From Stigmatella erecta (GTDB lineage: Bacteria > Myxococcota > Myxococcia > Myxococcales > Myxococcaceae), in NCBI RefSeq assembly GCF_900111745.1, contig NZ_FOIJ01000009.1, forward strand, positions 124,001 through 188,000: a stretch of DNA of 64,000 bases. The letters run 5' to 3'. A program made the translations under genes and the position numbers. Below the pieces are notes generated by a model that was not told the origin of the DNA, made no database searches, and was given only the letters and a program-made list of their open reading frames with translations. This document shows positions 14,966-55,700 of the stretch, piece by piece; position 1 is the first letter of the stretch; the number at the start of each line of letters is the position of its first letter.

Positions 14966-15598
14966 GTGGCGACGGCGAAGGAGCTGACCGGCGCGTCCGG
15001 GGACAACACGGTGGTGGGGCCCTCCATCCTCATCAGCGGCAGGCTCACCGGCGATGAGGACCTCACCGTCCGGGGACGGGTCGAGGGCGAGCTGACGCTC
15101 AGCAAGACCCTCATCGTGGAGACCACGGGCGTGGTGAAGGCCAACGTGGCGGTGCGCAACGCCATCATCAGCGGCGTGGTGGTGGGCAACATCAACGCCA
15201 CCGAGAGCGTGGAGCTCACCCGCGAGGGCCGCATGGTGGGCGACATCCGCTCCCCGCGCGTCATCATCGTGGACGGCGCCAGCTTCCGCGGCCGGGTGGA
15301 CATGGGCGAGGTGGAGCCGGGCCGCGTGCCCGCCTCCCGTCCGGCGGTGACCCGCCCCACCACGCGCGCGGTGGCCACGGTGCCCGCCCGCCCGGCGGTG
15401 CCCGCGCGCACGGCGGCCCCCACGCCCCCGTCGCGTCCCGTGCCCCCGCCGCCCCCGGCGAAGCCCGCATCCAAGCCGCTGCCGCCGCCGCCGCCTGCCG
15501 CCGCGGCCGCGGCGCGCACCGAGGTGTCCGCGCCCGTGCCTCCCGTGGTGGGAGCGGGTGCGAAGAAAAAGGTCGTGGTGAAGAAGAAGGCCCGCTAG
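14966..15598 (+). CDS. bacP: Bactofilin with long Pro/Ala-rich tail (BacP-like)
   Basis: A 210-residue bactofilin starting at GTG 14966, after an AAGGAG sequence at the end of bacO. Residues 1-115 are the beta-helix core. Residues about 120-190 are a disordered Pro/Ala tail ([14 protein letters not shown] and [13 protein letters not shown]), and the last residues are the basic run [11 protein letters not shown]. In Myxococcus xanthus BacP is the bactofilin with an extended tail and it binds partner proteins, including PadC. The tail and basic end here are the likely docking segment for the ParB-like protein encoded next. A GC hairpin spans the stop codon (15590-15605) and could reduce read-through. 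Confidence 0.85.
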
Positions 15599-15608
15599 GG
15601 CGGGCTTT
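15590..15608 (+). terminator. Weak GC hairpin at the bacP stop codon
   Basis: GCCCGC and GCGGGC form a 6-bp stem with loop TAGG (15590-15605), followed by TTT only. It overlaps the bacP stop. It could act as a partial terminator or attenuator that lowers padC relative to the bactofilins. The short T tract makes full termination unlikely. Confidence 0.35.
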
Positions 15609-15665
15609 CGCCGTGCCGCCCCGGTGACGTGCGCGGCACGGTGCCGGGCCGAGCCAGGGGTACCG

Positions 15666-16601
15666 ATGGACGCCGAGAACAGGGTCGACGGAGAGGACGG
15701 GAAGCCGGAGATGCCAGAGGAGCCGTCTTCGGTCCCTCCGCCGCAGGAGGGAGCATCCGCTCACCCCGAGGAGCCGGGGCAGGGCGCTTCGCCCGAAGGT
15801 GGGGCGGAGCCGTCCCCGGACACGGCCGCCTCCGGCGAGTCCGCCCCGGGGGAGGCGGAGGCTTCGCATGGCGGGGAGCCGCAAGGCACGCCGGAGGAGG
15901 CTACCGCCGGGGAGCCGTCCGCGCAGGCCGAGCCCGCAAGCGCCCAGGAGGCGGCCTCGCCGGAGCCGCTGGCCGAGCTGCGGCCGCCGCCCTCGCTGGA
16001 CCGGATGGTGCTGGCCTCGCTGCCGCTGGAGCAGGTGGAGGAGGACGCCACCTTCCGCATCCGTCCGCCCGGGGAAATTTCCGCGCTGGCCACGGACATC
16101 GCCCGGCTGGGGCAGCTGTTCCCGGTGGACGTGCGCGCCGTGGGGCAGGACCGCTACCAGATCATCTGCGGCTTCCGGCGCGTGGCGGCCCTGCGCTTCC
16201 TCAAGCGGGACCGGGTCCAGGCGCGGGTCCACGAGGCGCTGTCGGACGAGGATGCGCTGCTCATCGCCCTGGCGGCGGCCATTCACGCCAACCCCGTGGA
16301 CCTCGAGGAGCTGGAGGCCAAGCGCGAGGCGCTGGAGTCCACGGGGCGCCTGAGCGCCGCGGCGCGGGACATGCTGGAGAAGGCGCTGGAGTCCGATGAC
16401 TCGCTGGCGCCGGAGTCGGTGGAGGAGGAGGTGGACGCGGACGAGCTGGCCGCGGACGCCGCCCAGCGGCTGGGCACCCTCAACCAGGACCTGTCCCTGC
16501 TCGCCGACGTGTTCCTGTCGCTGGACGAGGCGCGCCGGGCGGAGCTGCTGATGCAATTGCGGTACTCGGCCGAGCTGGTGGAGTACCTGGAGAACCTGTG
16601 A
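15666..16601 (+). CDS. padC: ParB/Srx-fold protein (PadC-like)
   Basis: A 311-residue protein. Residues 1-105 are acidic and low-complexity (Glu, Pro, Ala, Gly). Residues about 110-210 are a ParB/sulfiredoxin-like domain with [13 protein letters not shown] in the place of the ParB GERRxRA nucleotide-binding motif. The C-terminus is an acidic helical segment. There is no helix-turn-helix for parS, so it is not the chromosomal ParB. In Myxococcus xanthus PadC is a ParB-like protein that links the ParA ATPase to bactofilin filaments, and its gene follows bacP, as here. The start is ATG 15666 with AGGGG five bases upstream; an upstream in-frame GTG at 15624 is less likely. The stop overlaps the pyrE start. 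Confidence 0.8.
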
Positions 16602-17167
16602 TGGCGACGCCCCTGGCACGTGACCATGCGCGGTTGTTGGAACTGCTGACCGAGCGCTCCTTCGAGCGGCGCCGCGTGGTGCTCGCCTCTGGCAAGGAGT
16701 CGGACTTCTACATCGACTGCAAGCGCACGGCGCTCATGGCCGAGGGCCACTTCCTCATCGGCCGGCTGCTGCTGGATGTCATCCTGCGCGAGGCCTCGCT
16801 GGCGGTGGGCGTGGGCGGGCTGACGCTGGGCGCGGACCCCCTCGCCTCGGCGGTAAGCCTCACCAGCTACCTGGCGGGCTCTCCCATCGAGGCCTTCATC
16901 GTCCGCAAGGAGCCCAAGGGGCACGGCACGGGCCAGTGGATCGAAGGGCTGGCGGCGCTCGGCCAGCACGCCCCGGTGGCCATCGTCGAGGACGTGGTGA
17001 CGACGGGGGGCTCCACGCTCAAGGCCATCGAGCGGGCCCAGGCCGAGGGGCTCAACGTGCTGGGCGCCTTCGCGCTGGTGGACCGGCTCGAGGGCGGACG
17101 CGAGGCCGTGGAGGCCGCGGGCCACCGGCTCTTCTCGCTCTACACGCGCAAGGACTTCATTCCGTGA
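16601..17167 (+). CDS. pyrE: Orotate phosphoribosyltransferase
   Basis: A 188-residue enzyme of pyrimidine synthesis that joins orotate to PRPP to give orotidine 5'-phosphate. The PRPP-binding signature is VAIVEDVVTTGGST (acidic pair Glu130-Asp131). The flexible-loop lysines (RKEPKGHGTG) and the N-terminal SGKESDFYIDCK block are all present, so it looks functional. The ATG at 16601 shares its A with the padC stop; a GTG just before it (16598) is an alternative. It is translationally coupled to padC upstream and to a lipoprotein gene downstream (GTGA overlap), so a housekeeping gene rides in the cell-polarity operon. Confidence 0.95.
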   Translation: MATPLARDHARLLELLTERSFERRRVVLASGKESDFYIDCKRTALMAEGHFLIGRLLLDVILREASLAVGVGGLTLGADPLASAVSLTSYLAGSPIEAFIVRKEPKGHGTGQWIEGLAALGQHAPVAIVEDVVTTGGSTLKAIERAQAEGLNVLGAFALVDRLEGGREAVEAAGHRLFSLYTRKDFIP

Positions 17168-24431: not shown

Positions 24432-24577
24432 ATCCGACGTTTGTTGCTCTTGGTGGGCCGGTCTCTCTTTTCAGGCCGTTCCCCAGACGCCTCGGCCCGG
24501 CTCTGTCCACATCAGGACGCAGGCGACGGCGTGGCAGCTTTTTTCGGCGCCCCGCAGGTGGCCGCGCTCTCGTGCAG

Positions 24578-24587: not shown

Positions 24588-27275
24588 ATGAGGGACGAGG
24601 TCCGCGGTGCCATGGTGCGACTGCTCTCCGGCCTCAACGCGGAAGAGCGGTCCTCCCTCCTCGCGCTGTTGCAAAGCGAGCAACCGGAGAACGACCCGGT
24701 GGCCGTGGTCGGCATGGGGGGCCGCTTCCCGGGCGGCGCCCACTCGCCTGAGGCCTTTTGGCGTCTGTTGCAGGAGGGCAGGAGCGGCATCACCGAGATC
24801 CCCAAGAGCCGCTGGGACATCGACGCGCTCTTTCATCCGGATCCGGACGCGCGCGGGAAGATGTACGGCCGCTGGGGGGGCTTCCTTGAGGGCGCGGATC
24901 AGTTTGACCCGCAGCCGTTCGGCATCTCCGATGAGGAAGCGGCGCGGATGGACCCGCAGCAGCGCCTGCTCCTGGAGGTCTGCTGGGAGGCACTTGAGAG
25001 CGCGGGCGAGTCTCCGACGGGGCTCGCCGGCAGCCGCACGGGCGTCTTCGTGGGGCTCGCGGACCAGGGGTACAACCGCGTTCGCGAGCCCGGGCACCTG
25101 GATGACTTCAGCGTGACGGATCACCTCACCAGCGTTGCCAGCGGCCGATTGTCCCACGTGTTCGGGTTCCACGGGCCGTCGGTGTCCATCGAGGCCGCGT
25201 GCGCCTCGTCGCTGGTGGCGCTGCACCTGGCCGCCGGGAGCCTGCGGCGGGGGGAGTCGGACCTCGCGATTGCCGGTGGCGTGACGCTGCTGCTGCAGCC
25301 AGAGATTTCATTCCATTTCTGCAAGCTCGAACTCATGTCCCGGGACGGCCGCGTCAAGGCGTTCGACGCGAAGGCGGACGGCGCGGTCCGGAGTGAGGGC
25401 TGTGCCTTGCTGGTGCTCAAGCGCTACTCGCAGGCGCTCGCCGACGGCAATCCGGTGCTCGCGCTGCTGCGCGGGGGGGCATCCACCAGCACGGGCCGCG
25501 GCGTGAGCCTCTCGGCGCCCAGCGTGCCGGCGATGCGGCGCGTGATGAGCGACGCGCTCGCGTCCGCAGGGCTCACCCCTGCGGACGTGGACTACGTCGA
25601 GACGCACGGCTCGGGCACCTGGGCGGGGGATGCCATCGAACTGCAGGCGCTGCGGGACGTCTTCGGCGCGCCACGGCCCGACGGGACGAAGTGCGTGCTC
25701 GGCGCGGTGAAGACGAACCTCGGGCAGATGGAGTACGCCGGCGGCGCCGCGGGCGTCATCAAGGCCATCCTCGCCTTCCAGAACGAGGCCATCCCGCCGA
25801 ATCTGAACTATTCGACGCCGCACCCGCGCGTCCGTCTGACGGACACGCCGCTCGTCATCCCCACGCAGACGCAGCCGTGGCCGAGAGGGGCCCGGCGGCG
25901 CATCGCAGGGGTCACCGGCTTCGGCCTGAGCGGCGCCCTTGCGCATGTGCTCCTTGAGGAGCCGCCGCTCCAGAGCGGCGCGGACGTGACGGCGCGGCGC
26001 CCGGTGCACGTGCTCACGCTGTCCGCGAGCTCGGCCGAAGCGCTCGCCGCGCAGGTGGAGCGCGTGGCGCCGCTGCTCGACGCGATCCCCGAGCAGTCGC
26101 TCGGGGACTTTTGCTTCACCGCGAACGCCGGCCGCGCCCATTTTTCGCACCGGCTCGCGGTCACGGGACAGACTCCCGCGCAGCTGAGGGACCGGCTCCG
26201 TTCCTGGCGAGGAGAGGCGCCGGCGGAGCGCCGCGAGCCGCAGCGGGTGGGGTTCCTCTTTCACGAGGAGTTCCTGCCGCAGGGGGCGCCTGGGCAGGAG
26301 CTGTACGCGACGCAGCCGGTGTTCCGGGACGCATTCGACCGCTGCACCGCTGCCTTCGCGGCCTCGGGCGCGCAGCGGGAGGTGCCTGCCGCGGAGCAAA
26401 CCCAGTTCTCCCTCGGGTTCGCACTCGCCGAGCTGTGGAAGGCGTGGGGCGTGCGTCCGGCGGTGGTGCTCGGCAAGGGTGCCGGCGAGGTGACAGCCGC
26501 ATGCGTCGCCGGGGCCATGGACCTTGAGACGGCCGTGCGCACGCTCGTAGCGCGGCCCTCGCGGGAGGACGGTGCTGGGTACCCGCTGATTGAGGCACTT
26601 CCACCGTTCCGATGGACGGACCTCGCTCAGACGCTCGAAGGTCAGAAGGTCACCTTCCTGATCGGCATGGCGCAGGGCGAGCCCGGCCACTTCGGCCTGC
26701 CCGGCTTTCTGCCTTCGTTCCGGGCAGGGCGGGGGGATTGGGAGGCGCTGGCCGAGTGCGTGGCGCGGCTCTACGAGCGCGGCGTCGAGATTGACTGGCG
26801 AAGCTTTGACCGGCCGTATGGGCGGCGTGCCGTCGCGTTCCCTGGGTACACCTGGCAGCGCCGGCGATTCTGGCTGCACCGGCCGACGGACGGCTCGGAG
26901 CCCGTCGAGCTCCCTCGCGCCGATGACACGGCGGCGCGTGTCCGTGCCGTGCCGGCGCAAGAGCGTCGCGCGCTCCTGCAGGCCCACCTGACGGCCCACC
27001 TCGCGAAGGCGCTGCGCGTTGCCGCCGGCGAGCTCAGCATGAACAAGCCGCTCATCCTCTTGGGGCTCGACTCGCTGATGACGGTGGAGCTGCGGCGCAA
27101 GCTAAAGTCCGAGTTCGGGTTCAACCTCGCGGTGGCGCGCCTGCTCGCGGGCGCGTGCATCGCGGACCTCGCACAGGACATCGAGCACCACCTGGCGGCG
27201 TCCAGTGCCCTGGCCGAGGGGCCGCCCCCCGTTCACGGCCCCGGCACCGAAGAGCGTGAGGTCATCGAGCTATGA
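24588..27275 (+). CDS. PKS module with atypical KS, dead truncated AT, and ACP
   Basis: An 895-residue type I PKS. The start is ATG 24588 with AGGAGAGG just upstream. Order: helical N-terminus (1-35, possible docking segment); ketosynthase (36-460); AT remnant (about 550-760); ACP (about 790-868) with phosphopantetheine Ser829 in LGLDSLM. The KS keeps its nucleophile (Cys205, EAACASS) and the first histidine (His340, VETHGSGT), but the second catalytic histidine of the GHLE motif is Gln380 (TNLGQMEYAGG), and the LGDP block is AGDA. The AT is about 120 residues short, lacks the small subdomain, and has GKGAG instead of GHSxG, with Gly631 in place of the serine. It should therefore move an acyl chain onto its ACP without extending it, or load a starter. 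Its stop overlaps the NRPS start. Family role is certain; the precise step is inference. Confidence 0.88.
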   Translation: MRDEVRGAMVRLLSGLNAEERSSLLALLQSEQPENDPVAVVGMGGRFPGGAHSPEAFWRLLQEGRSGITEIPKSRWDIDALFHPDPDARGKMYGRWGGFLEGADQFDPQPFGISDEEAARMDPQQRLLLEVCWEALESAGESPTGLAGSRTGVFVGLADQGYNRVREPGHLDDFSVTDHLTSVASGRLSHVFGFHGPSVSIEAACASSLVALHLAAGSLRRGESDLAIAGGVTLLLQPEISFHFCKLELMSRDGRVKAFDAKADGAVRSEGCALLVLKRYSQALADGNPVLALLRGGASTSTGRGVSLSAPSVPAMRRVMSDALASAGLTPADVDYVETHGSGTWAGDAIELQALRDVFGAPRPDGTKCVLGAVKTNLGQMEYAGGAAGVIKAILAFQNEAIPPNLNYSTPHPRVRLTDTPLVIPTQTQPWPRGARRRIAGVTGFGLSGALAHVLLEEPPLQSGADVTARRPVHVLTLSASSAEALAAQVERVAPLLDAIPEQSLGDFCFTANAGRAHFSHRLAVTGQTPAQLRDRLRSWRGEAPAERREPQRVGFLFHEEFLPQGAPGQELYATQPVFRDAFDRCTAAFAASGAQREVPAAEQTQFSLGFALAELWKAWGVRPAVVLGKGAGEVTAACVAGAMDLETAVRTLVARPSREDGAGYPLIEALPPFRWTDLAQTLEGQKVTFLIGMAQGEPGHFGLPGFLPSFRAGRGDWEALAECVARLYERGVEIDWRSFDRPYGRRAVAFPGYTWQRRRFWLHRPTDGSEPVELPRADDTAARVRAVPAQERRALLQAHLTAHLAKALRVAAGELSMNKPLILLGLDSLMTVELRRKLKSEFGFNLAVARLLAGACIADLAQDIEHHLAASSALAEGPPPVHGPGTEEREVIEL

Positions 27276-30200
27276 GCGTCACCGAACTTCTCTCCGGACT
27301 TGCGCAGCTGGGGATTCACATCTCGCTCGGCGAGGGCGGGCAGCTGTCCGTGAACGCTCCGAAGGGGGCGCTCACTGCGGAGATCCGCCAGCGAATCACC
27401 GAGCACAAGCCGCAGCTCCTCGTGTTGCTCCGGGAGCGCAAGGCACAGCCGGCCGAGCCCGAAGTCCCTGCGCTCATGGCTGACCCCGCGAACCGCTACG
27501 AGCCGTTCCCGCTCACCGACATCCAGCAGGCGTATTGGCTGGGGCGGGGCGGGGCCGTGGAGATGGGCGACGTGTCCATCCACGTGTACTGGGAGCACGA
27601 TTTCCGCCCCCTGGACGTTTCCCGGATGGAGCGCGCCTGGCAGAAGGTCATCGCCCGCCATGACATGCTCCGGGCGGTCATCCTTCCGGACGGGCGTCAG
27701 CAAATCCTTCGCGAAGTCCCGCCGCTGCGCATTGGCGTGCTCGATCTGAGTCAGGCCTCGCCCGCCGAGGTCGAGGCCGGGCTCGCGCAGGTGCGCGACG
27801 CGCTCTCGCACCAGGTCCTCCCGCTCGATAGGGCACCGCAGGTCGAGGTCCGCGCGACGCACCTGCCCGGCGGCGTCACCCGGCTCCACCAGAGCGTCGA
27901 CCTGGTCCAGCTCGACGGCGGAAGCCTCGCGCTGCTCGCGTACGACGTTGCCCGGGCGTACCAGTACCCGGACGCGGAGCTGCCGGCGCTGGACATCTCG
28001 TACCGGGACTACGTCCTTGCGGAGCGCAAGCTGCACGACAGCCAGACGGCGCAGCAGTCCCTCGCGTACTGGCGCTCGCGCGTGCGAGAGCTGCCGCCCG
28101 CTCCGGAGCTCCCGCTGGCCCGCGCGCCTTCGTCGCTCAAGACGAGCCGGTTCAAGCGCCGGGTGGCACGGCTGGATGCGACGCGCTGGGCGCAGCTGCA
28201 GGCGAGGGCGAAGGCGCGCGGACTGACGCTCTCGTCGGTTCTCATCTCGGTGTACGCCGAGGTGCTCGCGGCCTGGAGCAAGAGCCCGCGCTTCACGCTC
28301 AACATTCCGCTCTTCAGCCGCATGCCCATGCACCCTCAGGTCAACGAGCTGCTGGGCGACTTCACCTCGATGATCCTCCTGGGGCTGGACCTCTCCGCTC
28401 CGGAGAGCTTCGAGTCGCGCGTCCAGCGGACCCAGGCCCAGCTGTGGCAGGACATCGAGCACACGCAGCACATCAGCGGGGTGCAGGCGCTGCGGGAGCT
28501 CGCGCGCGTCCAGAAGACGTCCAACGCGTCGCTGCCCATTGTCTTCGCGAGCTTGCTCAGCCTGCGCTCCGAGGGCTACGCCGACTGGGCGTCCGCGTGG
28601 AAGCAGATCTCCGAGCCGGTCTTCACGCTGACCCAGACGCCGCAGCTGTGGATCGACAACCAGGTCCAGCAGGAGGACGGGGGGCTGGCCGCGTCCTGGG
28701 ACTCCGTGGAGGAGCTGTTCCCCTCCGGCATGCTGGATCAGATGTTCGAGAGCTACCGGCTCCTGCTGGAGCAGCTCGCGACGGAGGAAGCTGCCTGGAC
28801 GGAGGTCCGCCCGCGGCGCGTGGCGCTACCGGCTGAAACGGTGCGGCTCATCGCGGAACTCAACGCCACGGACGCACCAGTCTCCACCGAGACCCTGTAC
28901 TCGCTCTTCCAGAAGCAGGCACAGGCGCGCCCCCAGGCCGAGGCTGTCATCAGCCCGCGCCGCACGCTGACCTACGAGGAGCTGCACGGGCGCGCCAACG
29001 CACTCAGCCACCGGCTGGGAGCACTCGGCTGTGCGAAGGGCCACCTTGTCGGCGTGGTGATGGAGAAGGGCTGGGAGCAGCTCGTCGCCGTGCTCGCGGT
29101 CCACGGGTGCGGCGCGGCGTACCTGCCGGTGGACCCCGAGCTGCCCCCCGAGCGGCTGAAGCTCCTCCTTGAACAAGGCCAGGTGCGTGCGGTGCTCACG
29201 CAGCCAGACGTCGATGCGAGGGTCTCCTGGCCGCAGGGGCTGGAGCGTGTCGTGGTGGAGGACGCTGGGCCACAGGGCCCCGAAGCCCTGCGCCCGGTGG
29301 CGCCTCCCGCGCCGGAGGACCTCGCGTACGTCCTCTACACGTCCGGCTCCACCGGGCTGCCCAAGGGGGCGATGCTCAGCCACCGCAACGCGGTCAACCG
29401 CATGCTCGACGTCAACGCACGCTTCGGCGTCGGCACGGGGGACCGGAACATCGGGCTGACCGCGCTCAACCACGACCTGTCCGTCTACGACGTCTTCGGC
29501 ATGCTCGCGGCGGGAGGCTGCGTGGTGCTGCCGGATGCGGCGTCGGTGAAGGACCCGCTCCACTGGGTGGAACTCCTGACACGCGAGCGGGTGACGTTCT
29601 GGAACAGCGTGCCCGCCTTCATGGAGATGCTGGTCGAGACGCTTGAGCGCGACCCGTCCCAGCCGCGTCCGGCCGATCTGCGCAAGGTGGTTCTCTCGGG
29701 GGACTGGGTGCCAGTTACTCTGCCCAATCGCATCCGCGCGCTCGCGCCGGGGGCGCAGGTCATCTCCGCGGGCGGGCCCACGGAGACGTGCGTCTGGGAC
29801 ATCTGCTACCCGGTGGGGACGGTGGACCCGTCGTGGCCGAGCATCCCCTACGGACGGCCGATGACCAACGCGCGCTACCACGTGCTCGACGAGCAGCTCG
29901 AGCCGCGCCCGGTGTGGGTCCCCGGCCAGCTGTACATCGCGGGCGCCGGTGTGGGGCTCGGCTACTGGGGAGACCCGGAGAAGACGCAGCAGAAGTTCAT
30001 CACGCATCCGCGGACCGGAGAGCGGCTGTACCGCAGCGGCGATCTTGGCCGACTGCTCCCGGACGGCAACATCGAGTTTCTCGGGCGCGAGGACCTGCAG
30101 GTGAAGATTCAGGGCCACCGCATCGAGCTCGGGGAGATCGAGGCGGCACTGTCGCAGCATCCGGCGGTCCGGGTTGCGGCGGTAACGGTGGCCGCGCCTG

Positions 30201-30729
30201 CCGGCGGCAAGAAGCGGCTCGTGGCGTTCGTCTCCATCAAGCAGGAGGCGTCCGAGGAGACGCTGATCGAATTCCTGCGTGAGCGGTTGCCCTCGCACAT
30301 GCTCCCCACGCTCGTGTTGAGGGACTCGCTGCCGCTCAGCGCGAACGGCAAGGTGGACCGCAAGGCGCTGGCCGAGCTCGCGCTCGAGCAGGCTCAGCCG
30401 AAGGCTGCGTTCGTCGCGCCGGGCAGCGAGCTTGAGCTTCAAATCAGCCGGCTCGTCCAGCAGGAGCTCAAGCTCTCCGAGCTCAGTGTGGACGGCCAGT
30501 TCTTCGACCTGGGCGCGGATTCCACGGCCATCGTGCGCATCACCGCCGCGCTGCGCGAGACGTTGAAGCTCGACGTGCGCGCCACGGACCCGTTCCGCTT
30601 CCCGACGGTACGTTCGCTCGCGGCATTCCTGGCGCAGAAGGGGAGCGGGCCTGCGGCGGCAGTGCAGGCAGGGGCGGATCGCGCGGCGGCGCGGCGTGAG
30701 GCTCGCGGACGCCGCAAGGGGGCAGAAGG

Positions 30730-30733
<4 letters not shown>
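27272..30733 (+). CDS. NRPS module: docking, heterocyclisation, adenylation (Cys predicted), PCP
   Basis: An 1153-residue NRPS. Order: TubC-type N-terminal docking domain (1-62); heterocyclisation domain (about 70-490) with DLVQLDGGS, the DxxxxDxxS signature (Asp210, Asp215, Ser218) in place of HHxxxDG; adenylation domain (about 535-1010) with YTSGSTG at 689; PCP (about 1045-1115) with Ser1084 in LGADS. The specificity positions read by eye are D735, L736, Y739, N778, then L, S, A, V, W, close to the DLYNLSLIWK code of cysteine-activating domains in thiazole pathways such as epothilone. The module should add cysteine to the incoming acyl chain and cyclise it to a thiazoline. No oxidase domain is inserted, so the ring may stay a thiazoline. 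Both ends overlap neighbours by ATGA. The Pro/Ala/Arg-rich C-terminal tail may be a docking segment. Confidence 0.92.
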
Positions 30734-43701
<12,968 letters not shown>

Positions 43702-43721
<20 letters not shown>

Positions 43722-46700
43722 GCTGAACCGTCAAGAGGTGTTGGCGAAGGCGCTCGCGGAGATCAAACAACTCCGGGTGAAGGCGCAGGCGGCCGAGCGC
43801 GAGAAGCGCGAGCCGATTGCCATCGTCGGGATGGCCTGCCGCTTCCCAGGGGGGGCCGACTCGCCAGAAGCGTTCTGGCGCCTCTTGCGTGACGGCGTCG
43901 ATGCCACGTCGCAGGTGCCGAAGGAGCGCTGGGACGCGGAACAGCTCTACGACGAGGACCCCGAGGCGCCCGGCAAACTCTACGTGCGCCGCGGAGGCTT
44001 TCTCGAAGGCGTGGACCGCTTCGACGCCGGGCTGTTCGGCATCTCGGCGCGAGAGGCTGCCGCCGTGGACCCGCAGCACCGGATGTTCTGGGAGCTGTGC
44101 TGGGAGGCACTCGAGAGAGCGGGCCGTGCGCCGCTCGGGCTCTCAGGCAGCGCGGCCGGCGTCTACGTCGGCATCAGCAACCACGAGTACCCGCCGGGCG
44201 GTGTGGAGCCCACCGAGGCGGACCCGCTGATGATTGGCGGCAACGCCACGAGCTTCATCGCGGGCCGGCTCTCGTACATGCTGGGGTTGCGCGGGCCCAG
44301 CGTGGCCCTGGATACCGCGTGCTCGTCGTCGCTCGTCGCGGTTCACCTGGCTTGTCAGAGTTTGCGCTCGCGAGAGACGGACTTCGCGCTCGCGGGTGGG
44401 GTAAACCTCATCCTGTCGCCCCACGGGACTTTGCTCCTGTGCAAGGCACGGGCGCTCGCGCCAGACGGGCGGTGCAAGGCGTTCGATGCGTCCGCGGATG
44501 GGTATGGGCGAGGGGAAGGCGGTGGCGTCGTCGTGCTCGAGCGGTTGTCGGACGCGCTCGCACGGCGTGCCCCCATCCTCGCCGTTATCCGTGGCTCGGC
44601 AGTCAACCAGGACGGCCACCGCAGCGGGCTCACGGTCCCCAACCCGGCGGCGCAGACGGAGCTCATCCGCGCCGCGCTCGCCAACGCAGGCGTGCGCCCT
44701 TCGGACGTCCAGTGCGTCGAGGCACACGGGACCGGCACCGCACTCGGAGACCCCATCGAGATGCGAGCGCTCGGGGAGGTCTACGCCGAAGGGCGTGCCC
44801 TGGAGCACCCGCTGTGGGTCGGCTCTGTCAAGACGAACCTCGGGCACCTCGAGTCCGCCGCGGGCATCGCGGGGCTGCTCAAGACGGTGCTCGCGCTGCG
44901 CCACAGGCAATTGCCGCCGCACCTCCACTTCGTGCGGCCGAACCCGGACATTCCCTGGCACGCGCTCCCTCTTCAGGTGAACGGCGCCCTGAGGCCCTGG
45001 GAGCGCGACGGAGGACGGCGTGTTGCCGGCGTGAGTTCCTTCGGCGGAAGCGGAACCAATGCGCACGTGGTGCTCGAGGAGGCGCCGGACGCGCCAGCCA
45101 GCCCCGCGGTGTCTGGAGAGGATCGCGCGCAGGTGCTCACGCTCTCGGCGAAGCAGGAGGAAGCGCTCTGTGCGCTCGCCGCCAGGTACGAGGCGCACCT
45201 GGCGGAGAACCCCACGCTCTCCCTGGCGGAACTCTGCTTCACCGCGAATACCGGACGCGCGCACTTGCCGCACCGGCTCGCGGTGGTGGGACGGAGTGCG
45301 TCCGAGCTGCGCGCGCTGCTCCAGGGCGCCGTGCAGGGCCGGGAGGTAACGGGCGTCGTCTCGGGCGTGGTGCGCGGCGAGGCGCGGCCCAAGGTGGCAT
45401 TCCTCTTCACCGGCCAGGGCTCGCAGTACGTGGGGATGGGGCGGGGCCTGTATCAGACCCAGCCGGTTTTCCGCCGCGCCCTGGATCGCTGCGCGGAGCT
45501 GTTTGGACCGTGGCTGAGCCAGCCGCTCCTCTCCGTCATGCATGCGGAGGAGGCCGGTACGGAAAGCCTCCTGAACGAGACCGGGTTCACGCAGCCCGCG
45601 CTCTTCTCCCTCGGGTACGCGCTCGCGGAGCTCTGGCGCTCGCTCGGCGTCGAGCCGGTCGCGGTGCTGGGGCACAGCGTCGGCGAGCTGGCGGCAGCGT
45701 GCGTCGCGGGAGTGCTGTCCCTTGAGGACGCGGTGACGCTCGTGGCCGAGCGCGCGAAGCGGATGCAGGCGCTGCCCCCGGGCGGCGCGATGTTCGCCGT
45801 GGCGTGCGGTGAGGAAGCGGTGCGGGCCGTGCTCGCCACGTGGGGGCCAGACGCCAGCATCGCCGCGCTCAACGGGCCTGAGGAGACCGTCCTGTCCGGG
45901 GAGGAGCGGGCGGTGACCGGCGTGGCCGACGCGCTGAAGTCGCAGGGCATCCAGGCCAAGCGGCTCCCCGTGTCGCACGCGTTTCACTCGGCGCGGATGG
46001 AGCCCCTCCTCGAGGACTTCGAGCGGGCGGTCTCGAAGCTTCGGTTCCAGGCGCCCCAGCTGAAGCTGGTCTCCGGGCTGACGGGGAAGCTCGATGGTGG
46101 AGCGGCCACGGGAGCGTCCTACTGGCGCAGGCAGCTGCGCGAGCCCGTGCGCTTCTCGGACGGCGTGATGGCGCTGGCCCAGCTCGGTGTGGACACGTTC
46201 ATCGAGCTGGGACCATCCCCCACGCTGTCCTCACTCGCGCGTACCTGCCTTCCCGAAGGACCGCACCGCTGGCTCCCTTCACTCCAGAGCAGGCGCGACG
46301 ACGCGGCGACGTTCCTCGGCAGCGTGGCACGGCTCTACGCGAGCGGTGCCGGCATCCGCTGGGAGGGACTCTTCCCGGACGGGCTGAGGCGGCTCGAGCT
46401 GCCGACGTACCCGTTCCAGCGGCAGCGCTACTGGATGCAAGGCCGGGCTCCGGCGGCGCCGGCCCAGCGCGTCCGGCAGGGGCACCCGCTCCTGGGTATC
46501 CGCACCGAGACGCAAAACGGCCCGGTGTTCGAAACCGAGGTGCGCGCCTCGGACCTCGCCGTGCTGCGCGACTTCCGTGTGTTCGGGACCATCATCGTCA
46601 GCGGCGTGGTGCAGGTCTCCTTCGCCATCCTCGCCGGGGCCGAGGTGCTGGGCGGACAGGGACAGGCGCAGATGTCGGATCTTGTCTTCTTCGAGCCGTT

Positions 46701-48531
46701 CACGCTCGACGAGGAGGCTCCGGCGCGCGTCCGCCTCCTGCTGGTGAACCCGGAAGCGGGACAGGCGCGCTTCGAACTCCACAGCGCGCTCACGTCGCAC
46801 GGGGGCCCGCCGGAGTGGAGGCGCCACTGCGCGGGCACGCTGTGCATGAGTGACGAGGATGGGGTGCAGGCCGGCGAAGCGCTGGTGCTGGACGGCATCC
46901 GCGCCCGCTGCACCACCGAGCTCTCGGCCGAAGCGTTCTACCAGTCCTATTGGGCGGACGCGGACCAGTGGTTCGGCCCGAGCTTCAAGGGGCTGACGCG
47001 AGTGTGGGGGGGTGACGGCGAGCTGCTTGCCGAAATCGAACCGACGGAAACGGGTCTCGCCGAGCCCGAAGCGGCGGGGCTCGTCGGCCGCGTGCTGACG
47101 GAGGCTTGCGCGGCGGAGGCTTGCGCGCAGTCGATGAAGGTCTTGTTCCCGAAGGAGTCCGAGTTCGCCTCGCGCGCCTACCTGGGGGTGGGCATGCAGC
47201 GCTCGCGCGGAGCCTTCCCGTCCGTGGGTGGGAAGCGCTTCGGTCACGCGCGCATGCGCCCGTCAGCTCCTGGGGAGACGCGGCTCTTCGCGGATGTGCG
47301 GCTCTTCGATGCGGACGGCCGGGTCATCACGACATACGAGGGTCTGAGCTACGCGCCCATCCAGTCCGAAGTGCTCCAGAGACTGGCGGCGCGTCCGAAG
47401 CGAGCGCGCGCCAGCGGGCCGGACCGCGCGCAACTGCTCTCGGCCGCGAGGCCGGAGCGCTCGCGCCTGTTGGAGACGTACCTCTTGCGTCAGCTGGAGG
47501 CGCTCCACGGAGCGCCCGTGCCTGGACTCGAGCCAGACGCATCGCTGGGGGAATTTGGCTTCGACTCCATCCAGTTCACCGAGCTCCGGGGGTGGATACG
47601 CAAGGATCTCGGCGTGGAGCTGCCCGCGGAGCAGCTCACGGCGGCCGCCAACCCGCGTGCCATCGCCGCGGCGCTCGCAGTGCGGCTGGCACCGGAGCCT
47701 GCTGCGGCCGCACCCGTGAGTGTCTCTGCTCCCGTGCAAGCCAGGGAGTGGATTGCCCGGTGGGATCGCCCACCGGCGGACGAGGCGCGCCTGCGCCTGT
47801 TCTGCTTCCCGTTCGCCGGAGGCGGAGCGTCCACCTACCGTGGGTGGGGCAAGGCGCTGCCGCGTGGGGTGGAGGTGTGCATCATCCAGCTCCCTGGGCG
47901 CGAGAACCGGTACAGCGAGCCGCCCGTGGAGCAGCTCTCCGTGATGCTCGACACCCTGGAGCGAGAGATGGCTCCGCTGCTGGACCTGCCCTTCGCGTTC
48001 TTCGGCACGAGCATGGGCGGCCTCCTCGCATTCGAGCTCGCGCGGCGGACCCGCGCACGCCGGGGCGTGTCGCCGGTACGGCTGTTCACCGCGGCATCGT
48101 ACGCGCCGCACCGGGGGCCGTCCGCGCCGCTCGCGGAGCTGATTCGCACGGGGGTGCACGGCGCGGACCCGGCGCTCCTGCGACGCTTCAAGGTTGTCCC
48201 GGATGCGTTGTTCGCTTCTCCGGATATGCTCAAGGTGGTGCTGCCGCCGCTCTACGCGGACCTGAGGCTCGTGCGCAGCTATCAGTACGACGATGAGCCG
48301 CCGCTCGCCTGTCCCATCACGGCCCTGTGCGGCACGCAGGACCCGATGATGACCCGCGACAACGCCGCCAGCTGGTCGCATCACACCGTGGCCGACTTCA
48401 CCTTGAGGATGATTCCGGGCGAGCACCTGTTCGTGCGGACTGCGCAGGAGGCGGTGCTCGAAGTGGTCCGCGAAGAGCTCTCGCGGCACCTGGCGCAGCT
48501 CGAGCGGGGTGTGGCGAAGGTGGCTTCGTGA
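43702..48531 (+). CDS. Terminal PKS module: KS-AT-DH(degenerate)-ACP-TE
   Basis: A 1609-residue PKS. The start is ATG 43702, inside the end of the previous gene, with GGGAG upstream; the frame itself opens earlier at 43648. An N-terminal coiled coil (11-32) is for docking. KS: Cys207, EAHGTGT, NLGHLE. AT: Ser659 in GHSVGE, HAFH at 759, malonyl type. A DH-fold domain (about 923-1223) keeps the HPLLG start and the FGPSFKGL block, but the catalytic HxxxGxxxxP reads FRVFGTIIVS (Phe958). No KR is present. ACP: Ser1289 in FGFDSIQ. Thioesterase (about 1350-1605): Ser1437 in GTSMGG and His1575 in GEHLF; the pattern PFAGGGASTY...LPGRENR resembles stand-alone type II thioesterases. It should release the finished chain, perhaps after a cyclisation by the DH-like domain. 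This gene marks the chemical end of the line, though not the end of the operon. Confidence 0.92.
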
Positions 48532-48550: not shown

Positions 48551-49708
48551 GTGAGCCAGAGCGCAAAGGCGTGGTTCCTCTACGCAGCAGACGCGGCGAG
48601 CACGGGCAAGCAGGCCGAGCTCGTCTACGGTGACCTCCCGCTGCCGGACCCCGGCCCGCGCGACGTGCTCGTCGAGCCGCTCTACGGCTCCTGGGAGGGC
48701 AATATGGGCCACTGCGTCCAGCGCAAGCCCATCGACGTCGCCCGGTTCCGTGGTGAAGAGCGTGTCGTCATCGGCAACGCGGGCGTCGTGCGCGTGCTGA
48801 GCATGGGCAACGAGGTGCGGGGCTGGAAGGAGGGGCAGTGCGCGCTCATCCTCCCCGACTCGGCGCTGGATCCCTGGGGCTACCCGACGAAGGCGTTCGC
48901 GTACGACATGGCGGGGACGACGGGCTTTCTGTCCACGCGCATGGTGCTTCCGGCGAGCGACCTCGTGCCGCTGCCCGAGAAGACACGGCACTCTTACGCC
49001 CAGTGGGCCGGGTTCTCCGCGCGCTACACCACGGCGTGGTCCAACTGGCGGCTGGCGTTCGGGACGTACCGGCTGATGGTGCCCCACGAGCGCAACCCCT
49101 CGCCAAACGTCTGGGGCTGGGGCGGGGGGACCACGCTCGCGGAGCTGGATCTCGCGCGCAGGCACGGCTGCACCACGGTGATGCTCTCGGCGTCGGACGA
49201 GCGGCTCGAACTCATCCGTCAGAGCGGCGTCACCGCGCTCGACCGGCGCCGGTTCGGCGACCTCTATTACGACGAGCTGCGCGCAGGGACCGACGGCGCC
49301 TACCGCCGAGCGTACCAACAGGCGGAGGCCGCATTCGTCCGCGAGGTGGAGGAGCGTACCGGCAAGCGGATGGTGCAGATATTCGTCGACTACATCGGCA
49401 CGCCGTTCTTCCGTGCCACGCGCCGGGTGCTCTCGCGCGAGGGCGTCATCACCACCGCCGGCTGGAAGGAGGGCATGGCCACCTCCTTCATGCGCGCCAC
49501 CGAGTGCATCGAGCGCCACCAGTACATCCACACGCACATGTGCACGCGCGAGGAGGTCCTCGCGGCCATCGAATACGGCGAGCGAGAGGGCTGGATGCCC
49601 ACCGTCGACGCGCGGATTCACGCTTTCGATGAGGTGCCTGCGCTGTCCCAGAAATTTCTCGAGGGCAACGTCGGGTTCTTCCCGGTGTTTGCGGTGAACC
49701 CGGAATGA
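48551..49708 (+). CDS. Medium-chain dehydrogenase/reductase, distantly CCR-like
   Basis: A 385-residue MDR-superfamily protein starting at GTG 48551 after AGGGAGAG. It has an N-terminal GroES-like half (to about 150) and a nucleotide-binding half with VWGWGGGTTLAELDLARRHG. No zinc-ligand Cys cluster is seen. A long insertion after the nucleotide fold (about 235-270, FGDLYYDELRAGTDGAYRRA) and the following VEERTGKRMVQIFVDYIG, VLSREGVITTAG and YIHTHMCTREE line up by eye with crotonyl-CoA carboxylase/reductases, though the match is distant. It could reduce an enoyl-CoA to an alkylmalonyl extender, or act as a trans enoyl reductase on the PKS. It lies 19 bp after the TE gene and overlaps the giant PKS start. 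Confidence 0.78.
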   Translation: MSQSAKAWFLYAADAASTGKQAELVYGDLPLPDPGPRDVLVEPLYGSWEGNMGHCVQRKPIDVARFRGEERVVIGNAGVVRVLSMGNEVRGWKEGQCALILPDSALDPWGYPTKAFAYDMAGTTGFLSTRMVLPASDLVPLPEKTRHSYAQWAGFSARYTTAWSNWRLAFGTYRLMVPHERNPSPNVWGWGGGTTLAELDLARRHGCTTVMLSASDERLELIRQSGVTALDRRRFGDLYYDELRAGTDGAYRRAYQQAEAAFVREVEERTGKRMVQIFVDYIGTPFFRATRRVLSREGVITTAGWKEGMATSFMRATECIERHQYIHTHMCTREEVLAAIEYGEREGWMPTVDARIHAFDEVPALSQKFLEGNVGFFPVFAVNPE

Positions 49709-52700
49709 GTCCGCCGGTGGGAGACATGCAGAGGCCACAGCTCGAGGGTTGGCTGCGCGTGCAGCTGGGGGCGCTGCTCGGCGTGGCGCCGGACGTGCTG
49801 GACCCATCGGCGCGCTTCAAGACGCTCGGACTTGACTCTGCGCGCGCGACCGAGCTCGTGGCCCGTCTGTCCGCGCACCTGAAGCGTGCGTTGCCGCCGA
49901 CGCTCGCGTGGGAATACCCGACGCTCGAGCGGCTTGCTGCCTACCTGACCACGAGCCCGGGCGGGGGACCGTCCGTGAAGGAGCCCGCGGCCGAAGGGGC
50001 CCGGGCCTCCGCAGAAGACGAGCCCATCGCCATTGTCGGCATCGGCTGCCGGTTCCCTGGCGGTGCGAGTTCGCCCGAGGCGTACTGGGAGCTGTTGCGC
50101 AAGGGCAAGGATGCCATCGGCGAGGTGCCCCCGGACCGCTGGAGCCTCCCCGAGTACTTCAGCCCGGATCTCACCGTTCCCGGAAAGATGAGCACCCGGT
50201 GGGGCGGGTTCCTGGATGGGGTGGATCGGTTCGATCCGCACTTCTTTGGCATCAACGCCCGCGAAGCCGCACAGATGGACCCGCAGCAGCGGCTCGCGCT
50301 GGAGCTGGCGTGGGAGGCGCTGGAGGACGCGAACATCGTCCCTGAGGCGCTGCGCGAGAGCCCCACCGGCGTCTACCTCGGCGCGATGTGGAGTGACTAC
50401 GCGCGCCTGGCCAGCGAGTGGCAGGTGGACCCGTATACGGCCACGGGCCAGGACACCAGCATCCTCGCGGGCCGCCTGTCGTATGTGCTTGGGCTTCGCG
50501 GGCCGAGCTTGGTGGTCAACACCGCGTGCTCCTCGTCGCTCGTGGCGCTGCACCTGGCATGTCAGGGGCTGCGGAGTGGGGAGGCGAGCGTGGCGCTCGC
50601 GGGCGGCATCAGCCTCATCCTGTCCCCGCTCAGCACGGTGGCGATGTCCAAGTTCGGCGCGATGGCGCCGGACGGGCGCTGCAAGGCGTTCGACGCGCGC
50701 GCCAATGGCTATGTGCGCAGCGAGGGCGGGGGCGTGGTGGTGCTCAAGCCGCTCTCCCGCGCCCTGCGCGACGGCGACCGCATCTACTGCGTGGTGCGCG
50801 GCACCGCCATCAACAACGACGGCTTCTCCAACGGCCTGACCGCGCCGAGCCCCCAGGCGCAGGAGGCCGTGCTGCGCGAGGCGTACGCGCGCGCCGGTGT
50901 ACCACCGGAGAAAGTCCACTTCGTGGAGGCCCACGGGCCGGGGACTGCACTGGGGGACCCGATCGAGGCTGGCGCACTCGGTGCTGTGCTCGGGGCGGGA
51001 CGGGTGCCGGAACATCCGTTGCGCATCGGCTCGGTGAAGACGAACCTGGGGCACCTGGAGGCCGCTGCCGGCATGGCGGGCTTGGCCAAGGTCGCGCTGC
51101 AGCTCCAACGCCGCTCTCTGGTGAAGAACCTCCACTTCGAGACGCCCAGCCCGCACATCGACTTCGAACGGCTCAAGCTGAAAGTCCAGACCGAGCGCGA
51201 GCCCTGGCCGGTGACGGGCGAGGTGCCGGTCGCAGGGGTGAGTTCGTTCGGCTTCGGAGGGACGAACGCGCATGCCGTTCTGGAGGCGGGCCCCTCGAGT
51301 CCCGCCACGCTGCTGGCGTTCGGAGCCCCGGACGCCCAGACGCTGCGCCGCCGTGTGCTCGAACTCCTGGATGCTGTTTCGGCGCTCCACGAGACGGAAG
51401 AACTCCGAGGCGTGGCCAAGGAAGCGGGCCTCTCGCTCGCGGCGGGGCCAGTGCGTGCGGCGTTCGTCGCGCGAGGCCCCGGCGAGATGGCGGAGTTGCT
51501 CTCCGCACGCCTTCGGGATGGCCGCACCGCGCCGGTGAATGGCACCCCCCACGTGTGTTTCCTGTTCCCAGGCCACGGTGCGCAGTGGGTGAGCATGGGC
51601 CGCGACCTCCTGGCCTCGTCTGAACACTTCCGCGCCGGGATGGAGGCGTGCGACCAATTGTTCCGGCCGCTCGCGGGCTGGTCTTTGCTCGACGAGCTGG
51701 TGGCTCCGCCGTCGCGCTCGCGCCTGGCGGAGGTGGACGTCGTCCAGGCGGTGCTGTTCGCTATTGAGGTGTCGCTCGCGTCGCTGTGGCGCTCTTTCGG
51801 CGTGCGTGCGGATTCGGTCGTTGGGCACAGCGTGGGCGAGGTCGCCGCGGCCCATGTCGCAGGCATCCTGTCGCTGGAAGACGCGGTGAAGGTCATCCAC
51901 GAGCGCGGGGTCCTCACGCGTGAGCTTGCGGGGAAGGGCGGGATGGTGTGGCTCGCGCTGGGCGCGCAGGACGCCTTGGCGCTCGTGCGCGAGCTTGGTG
52001 TGGAGCTCGTGCTCGGCGCGGAGAACGGCCCGCGTTCCAGCGTGCTGTCTGGCGGCGAGGAGGCGCTCGCGTCGCTGCTCGCCGTGCTCGCGTCGCGCGG
52101 GATTCGCGGGGGCCGCGTGAACATCGCGTTCGCGTCGCACAGCCCGCAGATGGATGTGCTGCTCGCCCGGTTCGAGGAGCGGCTCGCCGGGATTCGGCCG
52201 CGGCAGAGCCGCGTGGAGATGGTGTCCACCGTCACTGGCGCTGTGCTCGCCGGGCCCGAGTGTGACGCGGCCTACTGGGCGAGGAACCTGCGGCAGCAGG
52301 TGCGCTTCTCCGCCGCCATCGGCGCGGTGCTCAAGCGCCCCGGGGCGCTCTGCGTGGAGGTGAGCCCGCATGCGACGCTTGAGCGGCTCGTCCAAGAGAA
52401 CAGCCCGAGGGGCGCATCCACGCCCGTCTTCGCGTCGTTCCGGCGTGGCGAGGACGCGCTCGGGGGCTTGTTGTCCACGCTTGGGGCGCTGTACGAGCGG
52501 GGTGTGTCGCCCGACTGGGAGGGCGTGTATCCAGGGGTGCGCGCGCAGCCTCTGCCCGAGGCGCTCCGGGTGCGACGGCCGGACGTGGATGCGCCGGCGG
52601 GGCCCGCGGTGGTGCTGCCGCTCTCTGCGAAGAGTCCGGGCTCGTTGCGCACGCTTGCGCAGCGCTTGCGCGAGTTCCTCCGCTTACCGGAGGGCGGCTC

Positions 52701-55700
52701 GCCCGTGGACCTCGCGTTCACCGCGGGGTTGAAGCGCACGCACCACGAGCTGCGGGTGGCCGTGACGGGAAGCACCCGGGGTGAGCTGGCGGATGCGCTG
52801 GAAGCGTGGTTCGCGGCTGGCGAGGACCCTCCGAAGCCGCCTCTTGGGCGGCGGCCACGCGTCGCCTTTGTCTTCCCGGGACAGGGTTCGCAGTGGGCCG
52901 GGATGGCCGTCCGGCTGATGCAGGAAGAGGCCGTCTTTCGTGACGCCCTTCATCGGTGCGACGCGGCCATCCTGAAGGTCGCAGGCTGGTCCCTGCTCGA
53001 GGAGCTGCGTGTGCCCGAGCAGACGTCCCGGCTCACCGGCGACGTGGAGGTGATTCAGCCGGCGCTCTTCTCCGTGCAGGTGGCGCTGGCAGCCCAGTGG
53101 CGCGCGTGGGGCGTGGAGCCGGCTGCGGTGGTGGGCCATAGCATGGGCGAGGTGGGCGCGGCACACGTCGCCGGTGTGCTGTCGCTGGAGGACGCGGTCC
53201 GCATCATCTGTGTGCGCAGCCGGCTGGCGAAGCGCACCAGCGGCCACGGCGCGATGGCGCTGGTGGAGCTGAGCGCGGACGCGCTGGGCACGTACCTGGC
53301 CCCCGTCGTGGACAAGGTCTCGGTCGCGGCGGTCAACGGGCCCTCGACGACGCTCCTCTCGGGCGAGGCGGAGGCTGTCGACGCGCTGCTCGTCACGCTT
53401 GAGGCGCAGGGCGTGTTTTGCCGCCGCGTGAAGGTGGACTACGCGTCTCACAGCCCCCAGATGGATGCGCTCCGGGAGGACATGCTCGGCGAGCTGAATT
53501 CCGTCCGCGCACAGGCGGGGGCCGTGCCCATCCGCTCGACGGTCACCGGCGCATGGACGGACGGGCGCGAGATGTCCGGCGCCTACTGGTTCGACAACAT
53601 CCGCATGCCGGTCCAGTTCTATCCGGCGGTGCGTGCGCTGGTGGAGGAGGGCTTCGACGCGCTCGTCGAACTCAGCCCGCATCCGGTCCTCGTCCCGGCC
53701 CTTGAGCAGAGCGTGCGCCATCTCGGCTCCCCGGCGCGGGTGCTCGCCTCGCTGCGGCGCGGCCAGGACGAACGGAGTGAGCTGCTCGCGGGGGTGGCGG
53801 CGCTGTACGCCCGCGGAGTGGACGTCGCGTTCGAGCGGCTCTCTCCACCAGGTGCCAGGGCCGTCCCACTTCCCACCTACCCATGGGACAAGGCCCGGTA
53901 TTGGCTTGAGCCCGCGACGGAAGAGGCGGGGCCTGTGCGCGCGCTGCACGGCCGGCGCGTGCAAAGCCCTGGGCGCGATGCGCACTTCGTGTGCCCGGTG
54001 GGCGTCGAACATCAGCCTTACCTCGCGGACCACCGCGTGTTCGGTGACGTCGTGGTGCCTGGGGCGTTCTACGTCACTGCGCTGGTGTCGGCGGCCACGG
54101 AGGTTCTCGCTGGAGCGGAGGTGACGCTCGAGCAGGTGGAGATTCCACGGGCTTTACCCCTCGCGGGTGGGCGCTCGGAGCGCCTCCACCTGCTGCTCAC
54201 GCCGGATGAGGCCGGTGCGGCGCACGAGGCCTCGGCGTCCACGGCGGGCGTGGACCCGGAGGAGCCCTGGAGGCGGCACGCGCGAGGGCGTCTAACGCAG
54301 GGCAGGGCGCTCGGGCACGGCGAGTCTCTGGCTGCCGTGCAGGCCCGTTGCCGTCGCGCGGCGGACCCCGAGCGGTTCTATGCAGACCTCGCGGACCGAG
54401 GGATCGAACTGCACCCGCGGTTCCAGGGAATTGGCCAGCTGTGGATCGCCGAGGGCCAAGCGCTCGCAAGGCTCGAGCCCGATGCGGAACTGGGCATTCG
54501 CGTGGCCCTGTTGCACCCGGCCGAGCTGGACGCGTGCATCCAGACGTTGATTGCGGCCGCGCCTGGATTGGAGGCGGGGAAGGCGTTCGTCCCCTTCGCG
54601 CTTGAGCGGCTGACCGTGAGCACGGGCGCCGGCCGGCCAGCCTTTTGCCACGCGGTCGTGCGTACGAACTCGGGGGAGGCCTGCCTCGGAGACCTGTGCG
54701 TCTTCGACGAAGCGGGAAGGGTCATCGCCGAGGTGGAAGGGCTCCAGCTCAAGCAGGCCGTGCGGGAGCGGTTCGGGGCGGCGCAGGAGGCCGCCGAGAC
54801 GGAGATGGCGCTGGAGGCCGCGTGGTTGCGTCAGGACCGGGCGCAGGCGACAGCACATGCGCCGGGGCGATGGGTGCTCTGTGCCGACGATGCGGGCCCT
54901 GCCGACGCGCTGGCGCAGACGCTCCGCTCGCACGGCGCCGAGGTGTTGCGGCTCCCGCTTTCGGGACGTGACGGCGCAGCGGTACTTGAGGGGACGCTGC
55001 GCGGTGTGGTGGTGATGGCAGGCCACTCCTCCGATGTGCAGGCGTTCGGTTCGGCTGTTGCCTGGATTCGGGCGATGGCCCGCGCCGCGCGCCGGGACCC
55101 ACCGCGGCTTTACCTGGTGACGCGGGCAACACAGCAGGCTCCGGGGGACGAGGTCGTCCTTCCGGAACTCGCGGTGCTCTGGGGCCTCGGCCGCACGGTG
55201 GCCTACGAGCACCCGGAGTTGCGGTGTGCGCGAGTCGATCTTCCCGCATCGCCGCTGGAGAGAGAGGCGGACGCACTGGCCGCAGAGCTCCTCTCCGGTG
55301 ATGTGGAGGAGGAGATCGCTCTGCGCGCAACGGGCCGTCACGTGGGCCGGCTCATGCGGATCTCGCGCCGTGTGCTGCCGCCTCCGGTGCTCGCTGGCGA
55401 TGGCACGTACCTTGTCACGGGCGGCCTCGGTGGCCTCGGGCTTCTTGCCGCGCGGTGGCTCGTCGAGAACGGGGCGCGCCAACTGGCCCTCGTGGGGCGG
55501 AACAGGTCACCCACGGCGCAGCAACTTGATGCCCTCCGCGCCCTTGAGCAAGAAGGCGCCATCGTCCATTTGCTGTCCTGCGACGTCTCCGACGCCACCC
55601 AGGTGGAGCGGTTGCTCGCGGACATCGCTCAGCAGCTGCCTCCGCTCAAGGGCGTCATTCACGCGGCGGGCATGCTCGAGGACGCGCTCCTCGTGGACCA

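Follow-up and report, generated by a model that had tools for sequence, protein, structure and literature searches.

The analyzed window is a stretch of 64,000 nt from Stigmatella erecta (GCF_900111745.1, NZ_FOIJ01000009.1, positions 124,001-188,000, forward strand); all coordinates given below refer to this window, and the operon features within it are on the plus strand. The gene of interest, PKS1 (24588-27275), encodes an 895 aa protein with the KS-AT0-ACP architecture (Pfam), where AT0 is an AT remnant, that is conserved across four genomes. PKS1 is the first gene of a head-to-tail operon of eight genes that extends past the end of the window. It overlaps the gene for NRPS2 (27272-30733), which consists of a TubC_N docking domain followed by Cy-A-PCP, with no Ox domain (Pfam). 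Next come two genes resolved by profile search, PKS3 (30730-35292; KS-AT-KR-ACP) and PKS4 (35289-43721; a module with an intact KS, an AT0 reading GHGVG and an ACP, followed by KS-AT-DH-KR-ACP), and then PKS5 (43702-48531; KS-AT-DH-ACP-TE), the start of which is suggested by the orthologue in genome G079 and the longest ORF of which begins at 43648. The terminal module in PKS5 has a DH but no KR ahead of the TE. A zinc-type dehydrogenase/reductase (48551-49708) is kept in the operon, as indicated by conservation, and is followed by PKS6 (49705-64000, continuing to 68286 outside the window), in which profile search identifies an ACP-KS-AT-AT-DH-KR-ACP loading part and two further modules, and by PKS7 (68283-73676, outside the window; KS-AT-DH-KR-ACP). 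Upstream of the cluster (14966-17167), genes for a bactofilin, a ParB-like protein and a phosphoribosyltransferase-like protein occur in a row that resembles the myxobacterial bactofilin-ParB locus.

The PKS1 frame is open throughout and its product matches the Pfam profiles for KS, linker, a fragment of Acyl_transf_1 and PP-binding. Conservation in the four-genome comparison begins at M[RK]DEVRG, which places the start at 24588 and not at the TTG at 24441. The N-terminal helical segment (24588-24680; modelled helices 2-14 and 18-30) is similar to the N-terminus of PKS7 and is a probable docking helix. The KS domain (24693-25967; PF00109/PF02801) adopts a well-predicted KS fold, with CurL (4mz0) as the best match among the solved structures. 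The AlphaFold model of the complete protein has an overall pLDDT of 63, with a good KS but a poor AT gap and ACP; the model was trusted for the KS fold only, and the geometry of Gln380 was not drawn from it. In the KS, the nucleophile Cys205 (25200-25202; sequence and alignment) and His340, the histidine of the HGTGT-type motif, here HGSGT (25605-25607), are retained whereas the GHLE histidine is replaced by Gln380 (25725-25727), which is invariant among the orthologues. The catalytic set is thus Cys-His-Gln as opposed to the Cys-His-His triad of an extending cis-AT module. These assignments agree with an earlier sequence-only reading of this DNA, made without database searches.

Three further substitutions in the KS had not been noticed in that reading. 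Leu451 (25938-25940) replaces the TNAH asparagine, which is equivalent by alignment to FabF Asn404 and is present in 93 of 93 ordinary KSs; Thr443 (25914-25916) replaces a near-invariant Ser beside the gating loop in the alignment; and Thr302 (25491-25493) occupies the loop-2 position equivalent by alignment to FabF Asp265, at which 86 of the 93 ordinary KSs carry Asp. The alignment indicates that Pro349, another conserved site, is changed as well. In FabF, Asn404 together with Asp265 couples two gating loops, and His303 and His340 (FabF numbering) bind the substrate carbonyl (PMC7138838). The joint loss of residues associated with malonyl chemistry and with the gate would fit an enzyme that only transfers chains.

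The AT remnant together with the post-AT linker (26223-26876) is both inactivated and truncated. The elbow that normally carries the nucleophile reads GKGAG (26472-26486; residues 629-633), without a Ser, and the GHSxG of a functional AT is missing. Only positions 15-116 of the 319 in the Acyl_transf_1 profile are matched, the region is about 125 residues shorter than in CurL (query 657-691 versus CurL 706-865), and alignment with other ATs shows that the small subdomain is absent. The Pfam, CurL and AT alignments all therefore bear out the earlier description of an AT without serine or small subdomain and, given the Cys-His-Gln set and the lack of GHSxG, PKS1 is indeed not a normal extender, as that reading maintained. 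The ACP (26979-27185; PF00550), by contrast with the dead AT, has an intact Ser829 (codon 27072). The protein ends with an EEREVIEL tail (27243-27272), conserved as EEREVIxL in the four genomes, which is a candidate SLiM docking motif and, being on the donor side of the PKS1/NRPS2 junction, a candidate binder of TubC_N.

All eight operon genes are found in the same order and with no internal stop in three further genomes, one of which is from another genus. The PKS1 orthologues are 89-94% identical, and Gln380, Cys205, His340, Ser829 and the Ser-less AT, with an elbow of GKGAG, GKGVG or GMGVG, are common to all four. Gln380 and the missing AT Ser are neither a sequence error nor chance because they are identical in four species. 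The dN/dS values (Nei-Gojobori) are 0.10-0.18 for the PKS1 KS, 0.01-0.15 for the other KSs and 0.32-0.48 for AT0; the PKS1 KS is under purifying selection, slightly looser than that on the neighbouring KSs, and the AT is wearing away. Among the 980 genomes scanned, a GQxE ketosynthase is confined to the four PKS1 orthologues. The pattern employed, K[ST]NxGQxE, is exact, so that alternative spellings would escape it; it matches 4 of the 195 genomes of the phylum, all PKS1 orthologues, compared with a summed total of 548 matches of the ordinary GHxE pattern in the 96 genomes of the family. The 386 genomes of the phylum that includes the Nostoc locus yielded five matches and no KS, these cyanobacterial candidates being rejected by eye as PlsX-type sequences, and the order to which the Burkholderia locus belongs had zero matches in 399 genomes. 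The nearest AT0 matches from other phyla, those in Nostoc and Burkholderia, do not have the GQxE change.

Another feature that was overlooked in the earlier reading is the presence of dead ATs next to intact KSs elsewhere in the same line. In module 1 of PKS4, the AT (36906-37613; AT alignment) is truncated and has a Ser-less GHGVG, invariant in the four genomes, beside a complete Cys-His-His KS. The third dead AT of the line belongs to PKS7 and reads GYGAG (GFGAS in G079), again beside an intact KS; in three orthologues, a further ~80 residues of its small subdomain are lost, so that this AT appears to be a case of erosion caught in progress. Because PKS4 module 1 and PKS7 combine dead ATs with intact KSs, AT loss alone is not a mark of non-elongation here. 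A search of the operon for a discrete AT found none.

A second, independent family of KS-AT0 proteins combines the same changes. The GYxE pattern identified ten genomes of two genera of the same family (G002-G007 and G032-G035; loci L047-L052, L057-L068 and L081-L084) in which a KS encoded in a cluster different from that of PKS1 reads GYPE or GYAE; GYLE matches in G014, G015, G057 and G058 turned out to be histidine kinases and were rejected as KSs. In the two clusters read to their end (G007 and G004), the KS-AT0 protein is the last one, with no ACP after AT0, and no TE was seen. Altogether, Gln or Tyr variants are present in fourteen genomes. At the GHLE site, the 109 collected KSs have His in 93, Gln in 4 and Tyr in 12 rows, two of the latter being repeats of one genome. 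The 16 rows without the His are exactly those without the TNAH Asn, and the other 93 keep both; the Ser443 to Thr replacement is common to the Gln and Tyr lineages. In the phylogenetic tree, the Tyr clade has as its sister an intact KS that is encoded in the same cluster as the Tyr KS and belongs to an AT0 module; the Gln clade is located elsewhere, on a long stem. With the trait columns removed, the grouping of the Gln and Tyr KSs is rejected by the AU test (p-AU 1.8e-6), which rules out a single family. The joint change of His and Asn arose twice, each time beside a dead AT; these are two events rather than sixteen because rows within one clade are not independent. That an unrelated module type lost the same residues in parallel points to a genuine relay role and not to decay.

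The gene order in the operon differs from the module order given that PKS6 carries the loading module and PKS5 the TE, which puts the TE gene ahead of the gene for the loading module (43648-64000). We infer that the simplest line is PKS6, PKS7, PKS1, NRPS2, PKS3, PKS4, PKS5, with PKS1 most likely being a mid-line bridge between PKS7 and NRPS2. Since the operon has a single TE and its loading module is not in PKS1, an upstream donor is needed for PKS1. As for the acceptor, a link between PKS1 and NRPS2 is inferred from the gene overlap, the N-terminal TubC_N domain of NRPS2 (PF18563, E 1.8e-13) and the conserved EEREVIEL tail; docking pairs of the SLiM/beta-hairpin type are established at junctions between carrier proteins and Cy domains (PMC9113145). 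The code of the NRPS2 A domain, read by eye, starts with DLYNLS and is cysteine-like. Since Cy-A-PCP lacks an oxidase domain, the predicted heterocycle is a thiazoline, not a thiazole, barring oxidation by an external enzyme. As to the name of the product, the literature searched on fulvuthiacene and ajudazol provided nothing decisive.

Taken together, these features make it probable that PKS1 is a non-elongating transacylase relay, functionally similar to the KS0 of trans-AT lines. The KS would receive the finished polyketide chain from the PKS7 ACP onto Cys205 and hand it, unextended, to Ser829 of its own ACP; lacking the second His, it would be unable to decarboxylate malonyl, and the AT remnant would be unable to load malonyl. 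Connected through the C-terminal tail of PKS1 and the TubC-type domain of NRPS2, the ACP would then offer the chain to the Cy domain of NRPS2, which would join it to an amino acid, probably cysteine. Conservation among orthologues, purifying selection and the parallel loss in the second family argue for a function of PKS1.

Skipping of PKS1 as a decaying relic, with PKS7 passing the chain directly to NRPS2, could be invoked to account for the deleted and fast-evolving AT0 as well as the long stem of the KS in the tree. This possibility appears quite improbable considering that the reading frame is intact in four species, the KS is under purifying selection, and both Cys205 and the ACP Ser are retained; furthermore, NRPS2 has a docking domain and it is PKS1 that carries a conserved tail whereas PKS7 stops directly after its ACP. 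The position of PKS1 as the first gene of the operon, immediately before Cy-A-PCP, is reminiscent of the epoA-epoB gene order in epothilone biosynthesis, which is the same, and could imply an EpoA-like starter module loading a short acyl group that NRPS2 converts to a thiazoline. Considering the dead AT, a KS unlike those of KSQ/KSY loaders and the absence of an acyl-CoA ligase among the genes seen in the operon, such a role would be most surprising, and the assignment as a starter from gene position was rejected in view of the loading module in PKS6, past the TE gene.

Alternatively, PKS1 might still elongate, provided that Ser829 receives malonyl from a free AT or from one in another module and that Gln380 takes the place of the second His, by analogy with Asn in the Cys-His-Asn triads of type III PKS and KAS III (PMC6274091). 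The pairing of intact KSs with dead ATs in PKS4 module 1 and PKS7 makes trans loading plausible here, and such loading has been proposed for irumamycin module 12, in which a dead AT with a GHS-to-Gly change would be served by AT11 (PMC11672594). Elongation nevertheless seems unlikely because Asn451, Asp302, Ser443 and Pro349 are changed in the PKS1 KS as well, the parallel family has Tyr, not an amide, at the site in question, and there is no discrete AT in the operon. For the non-elongating relay, a related expectation is that Q380H alone, which the sequence-only reading thought might regain condensation, probably would not restore it because other near-invariant sites are changed and the module has no malonyl loader.

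For trans-AT lines, non-elongating KSs that lack the HGTGT His are textbook knowledge. PKS1 belongs to a cis-AT line and lacks the GHLE His instead, along with the gating Asn (FabF Asn404, PMC7138838). There is an even chance that these proteins represent a separate class of relay KSs in cis-AT lines, with at least two origins, defined by the loss of the GHLE His and the gating-loop Asn, along with Ser443 to Thr, and by a dismantled AT. If so, losing chemistry and gate in parallel would reveal what transfer by itself demands of a KS. The changes in PKS1 and the independent changes at the same sites in the second family yield a testable claim that assigns some KS residues to chain transfer and others to malonyl chemistry and gating. 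In practical terms, prediction of chain length from sequence would leave such modules uncounted, and PKS1 would be a natural adaptor joining a PKS to a Cy-type NRPS.

Among the known systems, the KSQ/KSY loaders (pikromycin, GfsA, EpoA) share with PKS1 the KS-AT-ACP layout and have a non-condensing KS, as proposed for PKS1. In these loaders, the Cys is replaced by Gln or Tyr, the AT is active and decarboxylation is preserved; PKS1 does not belong to this type, as the earlier reading had already argued from the cysteine, because Cys205 is retained and the AT is dead. Colibactin ClbK (PDB 8cjh), which also precedes a Cy domain, and irumamycin module 12 contain a dead AT within the module, like PKS1. 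The KSs of these modules are thought to elongate, with malonyl from another AT, unlike in the proposal for PKS1, and we know of no loss of the GHLE His in either of them. The trans-AT KS0 (for example, MmpA and MmpE of mupirocin) resemble PKS1 in that the nucleophilic Cys is kept, one catalytic His is lost and a KS0-ACP unit, often located at a junction, takes over a chain without extension, as proposed for PKS1; MmpD, upstream of the mupirocin KS0, resembles PKS7 in that it has nothing beyond its ACP. In vitro, KS0 modules take over chains from the ACP that precedes them (PMC7619045, PMC10952193). They are, however, defined by the loss of the HGTGT His (PMC5764310, PMC4661987) and have no integrated AT, whereas PKS1 keeps this His as HGSGT, loses the GHLE His instead and contains an AT remnant in a cis-AT line with active-looking ATs elsewhere. 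Because the retained His340 fails the standard definition, PKS1 is not classed as a trans-AT KS0; of the earlier proposal of a cis-AT KS0 feeding a Cy domain, the relay part is supported by context, conservation, selection and parallel loss but the KS0 label does not hold in its usual sense. The literature searched, which included few subscription papers, yielded no cis-AT KS0 that lacks the GHLE His, a negative that is weak evidence. The GYPE/GYAE KS-AT0 proteins share with PKS1 the loss of the same His and Asn, the same Ser-to-Thr replacement and a dead, truncated AT, and differ from it in the presence of Tyr rather than Gln, in their independent origin and, where read to the end, in lacking an ACP.
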